Virus record (IMG/VR): IMGVR_UViG_3300011116_000465
Location: 1-35,214 of that record
DNA length: 35,214 nucleotides
DNA from: a virus
Reading direction: 5' to 3' (one strand)
Shown here: positions 7,883-7,954 of the stretch, one piece after another
Layout of the letters: each line of letters starts with the position of its first letter
Numbering within the stretch: the first letter of the stretch is position 1
Notes under the pieces: model-generated
Told to the model about the DNA's origin: nothing
Databases searched by the model: none
The model's input: only the letters and a program-made list of their open reading frames with translations
Made by a program: the position numbers and the translations under genes

Positions 7883-7954
7883 TTACTTGTTCATTACGTA
7901 CATAGTTACTTCAAAGCCAAATCTCATTTCTGTAGCTGCTGGTTTAGTCCACAT
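7883..7954 (-). CDS. pqqA: PqqA, PQQ precursor peptide (23 aa), phage-encoded
   Basis: The 23-residue product begins MWTKPA and contains GFEVTMY, the hallmark of PqqA, the ribosomal peptide turned into pyrroloquinoline quinone. The two residues that become the cofactor, Glu and Tyr in E-x3-Y, are E15 and Y19, the same positions as in 23-24 aa bacterial PqqA. In the known pathway PqqE, with PqqD, joins them and other Pqq enzymes finish the cofactor. None of those enzymes is in this window, so host enzymes would be needed. AGGAG lies seven bases before the ATG. The gene sits alone between two terminators, behind a 21-bp palindrome. It would feed PQQ to host quinoprotein dehydrogenases such as methanol dehydrogenase. 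Confidence 0.9.
   Translation of the reverse strand: [23 protein letters not shown]

Follow-up and report, generated by a model that had tools for sequence, protein, structure and literature searches.

A probable pqqA auxiliary metabolic gene within a predicted self-contained transcription unit of a 35-kb phage

A pqqA gene beside the major head protein gene

The DNA considered here, hereafter the window, is the entire virus record IMGVR_UViG_3300011116_000465 (35,214 nucleotides), a bona fide phage genome whose genes include those for a portal, a large terminase, a major head protein and a DNA polymerase. Among these phage genes, adjoining that for the major head protein, sits a very short reading frame, pqqA, flanked by a set of transcription and translation signals (Table 1). 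The encoded peptide has the 23 residues, ribosome site and stop codon expected of PqqA. Against Pfam PF08042 it scores 42.4 bits (E 6.4e-11; cut-off 21.1), covering positions 1-19 of the 19-position profile, and against the equivalog TIGR02107 of NCBIfam 40.4 bits (cut-off 20). PqqE, acting with the chaperone PqqD, cross-links a Glu and a Tyr of PqqA (PMC9851590, PMC10906245), and this pair is present in the window peptide as E15-x3-Y19.

A preliminary description of this DNA had recognised a 24-codon minus-strand frame with a well-placed AGGAG, named it PqqA, pointed to the E-x3-Y residues and placed it between late operons. That observation is confirmed: frame and ribosome site are real, both profiles are matched at about twice their cut-offs, both residues are there, and the flanking genes, that for the major head protein and a 193-aa gene, lie on the same strand. 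Nor is the frame a product of chance, since peptide and position recur in relatives and since some 110 distinct viral copies differ overwhelmingly by synonymous codon changes.

Table 1. Features at and around pqqA, by window position
Feature	Position	Strand	Remarks
Major head protein gene	8095..9009	(-)	phrog_371; pqqA occupies the same following slot in pqqA-bearing relatives
Terminator-like hairpin and T-run ending the capsid-gene transcript	8040..8070	(-)	read from sequence; absent from the consensus-scan list
Operator/activator box TCATGGTTTTCTCTAT	8025..8040	(-)	resembles the Methylophilaceae pqqA promoter box
-10-like hexamer CATAAT	7998..8003	(-)	exactly 36 nt downstream of box start
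Perfect dyad TTATACACAC-G-GTGTGTATAA	7973..7993	(-)	predicted hairpin at or near the transcript 5' end
Shine-Dalgarno AGGAG	7962..7966	(-)	7 nt 5' of the pqqA ATG; from sequence
pqqA	7883..7954	(-)	23 codons and stop; translation, Pfam and NCBIfam profile matches
Hairpin (AGGGGGC-TTAAT-GCCCCCT) with T-run, resembling an intrinsic terminator, at the end of the pqqA unit	7814..7842	(-)	
193-aa gene with its own promoter region	7098..7679	(-)	downstream of pqqA

Read in the direction of transcription, the unit comprises the activator box, the -10 hexamer at 36 nt, the 5' hairpin, the Shine-Dalgarno sequence, pqqA and its terminator, and the upstream terminator-like hairpin would separate the capsid-gene transcript from that of pqqA. 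The terminator that closes the unit is placed at 7824-7842, inside the span given in Table 1. Relatives of the capsid gene that lack pqqA have the capsid gene, its terminator and then, directly, the promoter region and the next gene. The entire pqqA unit (promoter, leader, pqqA and terminator) is inserted 3' of the capsid gene in about 15 relatives, the window included, at a point that falls between two transcription signals adjoining one another in the pqqA-less relatives. On a capsid tree of 11 pqqA-bearing and 65 pqqA-less rows, five label changes are needed to account for the distribution, and all seven members of the window's own sub-group carry the gene (SH-aLRT 84). Two of the capsid relatives have an extra gene of roughly 113-116 codons after the capsid terminator and ahead of the pqqA unit; judging from this gene, the slot after the capsid gene may be a cargo site.

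Among the window genes sampled, which were part of the open reading frames, no other PQQ-synthesis or methanol-oxidation family was matched. No Rfam family was matched in the window, and a near-identity DNA search with positions 5800-16600 among phage records returned nothing. Elsewhere in the window lie an adjacent pair of 2OG-Fe(II) oxygenase genes (29997-31167 (+); PF13759, PF13640) and, on the plus-strand arm, a gene for an anti-restriction protein (18311-19165 (+); phrog_7245).

Spread of pqqA and selection on its peptide

The probable host follows from the peptide itself. Scanning bacterial and archaeal genomes with an 11-residue coding pattern gave at least 120 loci; among the matches listed, 90 belong to Methylophilaceae by NCBI lineage, accompanied by nine further Nitrosomonadales, four Burkholderiales, one Rhodocyclaceae and 16 unplaced. 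The window peptide recurs letter for letter in at least 26 Methylophilaceae-type host gene copies, with synonymous codons that differ, and by reason of this identity the phage most likely infects a member of Methylophilaceae, which lends strong support to the earlier guess of a methylotrophic host. Given these identical host peptides, conversion of the window PqqA to PQQ by the Pqq enzymes is also likely. All 60 Methylophilaceae genomes surveyed carry pqqA, in 1-12 copies each; the published range is 3-12 copies per genome, other pqq genes being single as a rule (PMC4109929). At five host loci two pqqA copies stand in tandem about 200 bp apart and encode differing peptides, one of the form MWTQP..VCNR/K and the other MWTKP or MWTTP..VMNK.

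The preliminary description had suggested looking for the gene in phages of Methylophilales. A tblastn search of the window peptide against 50,697 phage records finds it there, in Venkman, P19250A, MEP301, MEP401, MEP402 and four Melnitz genomes, and finds a copy 100% identical to the window peptide in ctXG6705. MEP431-434, which the taxonomy names, do not figure among these matches, though they may be absent from the record set. The PqqA of the isolates (Venkman, P19250A, MEP301, MEP401/402 and Melnitz) is 77-96% identical to that of the window, whereas the phages belong to different lineages and carry the gene at different genome positions. Where inspected, isolate pqqA lies in unannotated sequence or beneath an unrelated 'hypothetical protein', so that the suspicion that default gene callers miss it holds true for these isolates. 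One match, record CAKLQH020000055.1 of 'Acinetobacter phage' MD-2021a, has pqqBCDE beside pqqA and bacterial content, and was set aside, as was a second match attributed to that phage (CAKLQF020000010.1).

Two scans of IMG/VR with degenerate DNA patterns together gave at least some 165 viral pqqA loci. Clustering of the listed loci by shared flanking genes resolves groups of 79, 24 (including the window) and 18 along with many small ones, so that pqqA has entered several unrelated lineages; by this measure viral pqqA is present in at least three large ones. Six of the viral loci encode other peptides, suggesting phages of other PQQ-making hosts.

In the first IMG/VR scan codons 13-19 seemed invariant, but this was an artefact of the search pattern, and conservation was re-tested with a pattern for the other half of the gene. 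The second scan fixed the N-terminal half only, and was thus blind to Glu15 and Tyr19. Both residues are nonetheless kept in 122 of 122 viral copies among the matches listed, bearing out the conservation in related phages to which the preliminary description had looked. Over codons 12-23 of 110 distinct viral sequences, pN is 0.052 and pS 0.728 (pN/pS 0.071); over codons 13-19 of the same second-scan set pN/pS falls to 0.022. Such low ratios, coupled with retention of the cross-linked pair, indicate that viral pqqA is kept for its peptide.

These data bear on two other accounts of the gene. It could be passive cargo, acquired from a host through recombination and of no benefit to the phage, and the equality of phage and host peptides is what such an origin would produce. 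Yet pqqA recurs in unrelated lineages and in the same slot, and identical peptides diverge synonymously, with pN/pS of 0.02-0.07; the passive reading is already contradicted, and we accord it a near-negligible probability. Alternatively, phage PqqA might act as a competitive decoy that ties up PqqD and PqqE and so throttles host PQQ synthesis. Binding is indeed to be expected of near-identical phage and host peptides, but the phage peptide equals the host substrate letter for letter, bears no mark of a poisoned substrate, and keeps both cross-linked residues in every one of the copies listed, which makes a decoy peptide extremely unlikely.

A host-type operator box and structured leaders

A sigma-70 scan gave no above-chance promoter-like site for pqqA, and the promoter is recognisable only as the box together with the -10 hexamer. 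We defined the pqqA operator as the box [CA]ATG[AG]TTTT[CA]..TA[GT] at fixed spacing to a -10. The window box conforms to this definition, its -10 lying at 36 nt, and scores 10.1 bits on a matrix trained on host promoters (2% threshold 6.25). This is a weaker match than many and the second best among all window positions, but among the top positions this box alone was seen with a correctly spaced -10.

The same arrangement extends well beyond the window. Of 154 viral pqqA leaders, 68 contain the motif [CA]ATG[AG]TT[TA][TC][CA] (shuffles, mean 1.6 and maximum 6; antisense, 5), and box-bearing leaders mostly have YATAAT 36 nt downstream. When built from host promoters alone, the matrix matched 114 of 153 phage leaders against three expected; within the window's capsid family, it matched 12 of the 15 regions that precede pqqA against none of 76 capsid-downstream regions of pqqA-less relatives. 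In host pqqA promoters the box lies 59 nt ahead of the -10, and a weaker second copy lies 23 nt closer to it, at a distance of 36 nt; the modal box-to--10 spacing is 59 in hosts versus 36-37 in phages. The window has the proximal site alone: where a host promoter would hold its distal box, another 23 nt upstream, it has the capsid-gene terminator.

In 12 host genomes there are 15 strict boxes, of which 13 precede a pqqA by 100-200 bp, counting both strands, which makes this a pqqA-centred operator. Of the other two, one lies elsewhere and one precedes a GSDH-family dehydrogenase gene (3-1085 (-) of L371, from an OM43-type genome) by about 440 nt; the family includes PQQ-dependent members, hinting at a wider PQQ regulon. 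On these sequence grounds the window box is of the operator type found at host pqqA genes, with a putative cognate regulator.

Could the box, rather than the gene, be the functional element? Many phage copies might titrate the host activator off host pqqA, leaving the gene itself secondary, and it is true that the box travels with phage pqqA and that phage DNA reaches high copy. A decoy operator would, however, have no need of the strong protein-level selection on the reading frame, nor of the start, ribosome site and terminator that the units retain, and we judge it very unlikely.

Between box and gene lies the 21-bp palindrome at 7973-7993. As an operator it was rejected: it occurs once in the window, and relatives form hairpins at the same place from different sequences. 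Because such differing sequences fold at the same place, a 5' mRNA hairpin fits the palindrome better than an operator does. 5' hairpins are general in pqqA leaders, with a mean z of -2.35 in phages (n=62) and -1.90 in hosts (n=33), and their sequences are unrelated. Known 5' hairpins slow mRNA decay.

A different structured leader, motif R1 (CUCAAR-helix-GACYU...CUC-helix-YGANCUG), occurs in pqqA phages other than this one and in hosts of the OM43 type. Its helix shows 97.8% pairing and 23 double-changed cells; slid controls fail. A covariance model of R1 finds about 20 phage and host loci; it matches once each in five of 60 Methylophilaceae genomes, just upstream of pqqA wherever gene coordinates are listed, and matches nowhere in the window. 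In methylophages R1 lies directly upstream of pqqA (L086:3026-3083, L067:619-676, L038:804-861 and L118:5170-5226), and in two OM43-type host sequences (L226:2371-2437 and L303:6132-6199 (-)) it stands before the leading copy of a tandem pqqA pair. No Rfam family matches the R1 leader at gathering thresholds. The idea of a glutamine riboswitch was dropped, there being no Rfam gathering-score match to the R1-class leader and only chance-level matches in a low-threshold search; R1 is possibly a riboswitch-like element.

Strong 5' hairpins, and a covarying leader RNA in other phages, might be taken to mean that the short transcript is itself the product, a regulatory or sponge RNA whose coding content is incidental. 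Selection at codon level within the reading frame speaks against such a role, as does the location of the structured parts outside the frame, and we regard its probability as almost vanishing.

Proposed PQQ supply during infection and known systems

Methylophilaceae inhabit lakes and coastal seas, and oxidise methanol with PQQ enzymes. A host homologue of the window gene exists and the viral gene is under selection, as befits an auxiliary metabolic gene; the interpretation offered in the preliminary description is supported. We consider it highly probable that the window carries a functional phage-borne pqqA of this kind, one that brings its own host-type promoter and forms a transcription unit by itself. 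Neither the operator nor the independence of the unit featured in that description. Most likely the phage supplements PqqA, which PQQ synthesis uses up, under control of the host pqqA regulator, and during infection phages probably ensure that methanol oxidation does not run short of cofactor.

The mechanism that we propose from these sequences would run as follows. During infection, the host regulator of the dispersed host pqqA copies would also drive the phage copy, whose number would climb with phage DNA replication; the short pqqA mRNA would yield much PqqA, its decay slowed by the 5' hairpin, by analogy with known cases. Host PqqD and PqqE would cross-link Glu15 to Tyr19 of phage PqqA, other host Pqq proteins would complete PQQ, and the additional PQQ would keep methanol dehydrogenase (XoxF/MxaF) charged, so that ongoing periplasmic methanol oxidation could provide energy and formaldehyde carbon for virion production. 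Each PQQ made uses up one PqqA. Since PqqA alone of the pathway components is consumed in this way, and its gene alone is multiplied by the host, pqqA is the obvious choice for a phage that carries one gene of the pathway, and no other would be needed to gain more PQQ; we infer that PqqA supply limits PQQ during infection. Since host copies are already many, one more would matter mainly through phage copy number.

A broader reading is more tentative, and we place it slightly below an even chance: that Methylophilaceae control PQQ supply by a dedicated activator on paired boxes at the dispersed pqqA copies, with an OM43-type leader RNA that is maybe metabolite-sensing, and that phages have repeatedly taken this control. 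With the same reserve, phages would have taken the regulated unit, its operator and in some lineages its leader RNA, gaining control of PQQ supply.

Most annotators overlook pqqA on account of its size, so infection models leave it out. The shared operator makes the question testable with one box, a 72-bp gene and cultured phage-host pairs. The phage operator also exposes a host pqqA regulon and leader RNA; in the open-access literature we found no description of these, of the operator wiring or of the extent among phages, although earlier mentions are possible. None of the publications describing Venkman, Melnitz, MEP301 and MEP401/402 was found to mention PQQ genes.

Phage PqqA as a kind is already known. 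In 2020, PqqA and a methanol dehydrogenase were described in VP_266, a T4-like methylophage population of Lake Baikal (PMC7678222), and a listing from 2026 includes virus-encoded pqqA, pqqE and pqqD in reservoir sediments (PMC13188868). VP_266 resembles the window in that PqqA of a Methylophilaceae phage was interpreted as an aid to methanol oxidation, whereas the window, at 35 kb, has a capsid gene of a different kind, and those of its genes that were examined include no methanol dehydrogenase; lineage extent, selection, host-type operator and transcription unit go beyond that report. The sediment study likewise has virus-encoded pqqA but, in the portion available to us, reads it as phosphate solubilisation and mentions neither a methylophage context nor regulation. 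A further parallel is with the dispersed pqqA copies of Methylophilaceae (PMC4109929), which share with the window the peptide, the standalone units, the operator box and the 5' hairpin; they differ in that a host promoter holds boxes at both 59 and 36 nt from the -10, and most phage promoters a single one, at 36. If methylophages generally carry pqqA, cofactor supply would be one point at which they act, comparable to psbA in cyanophages.
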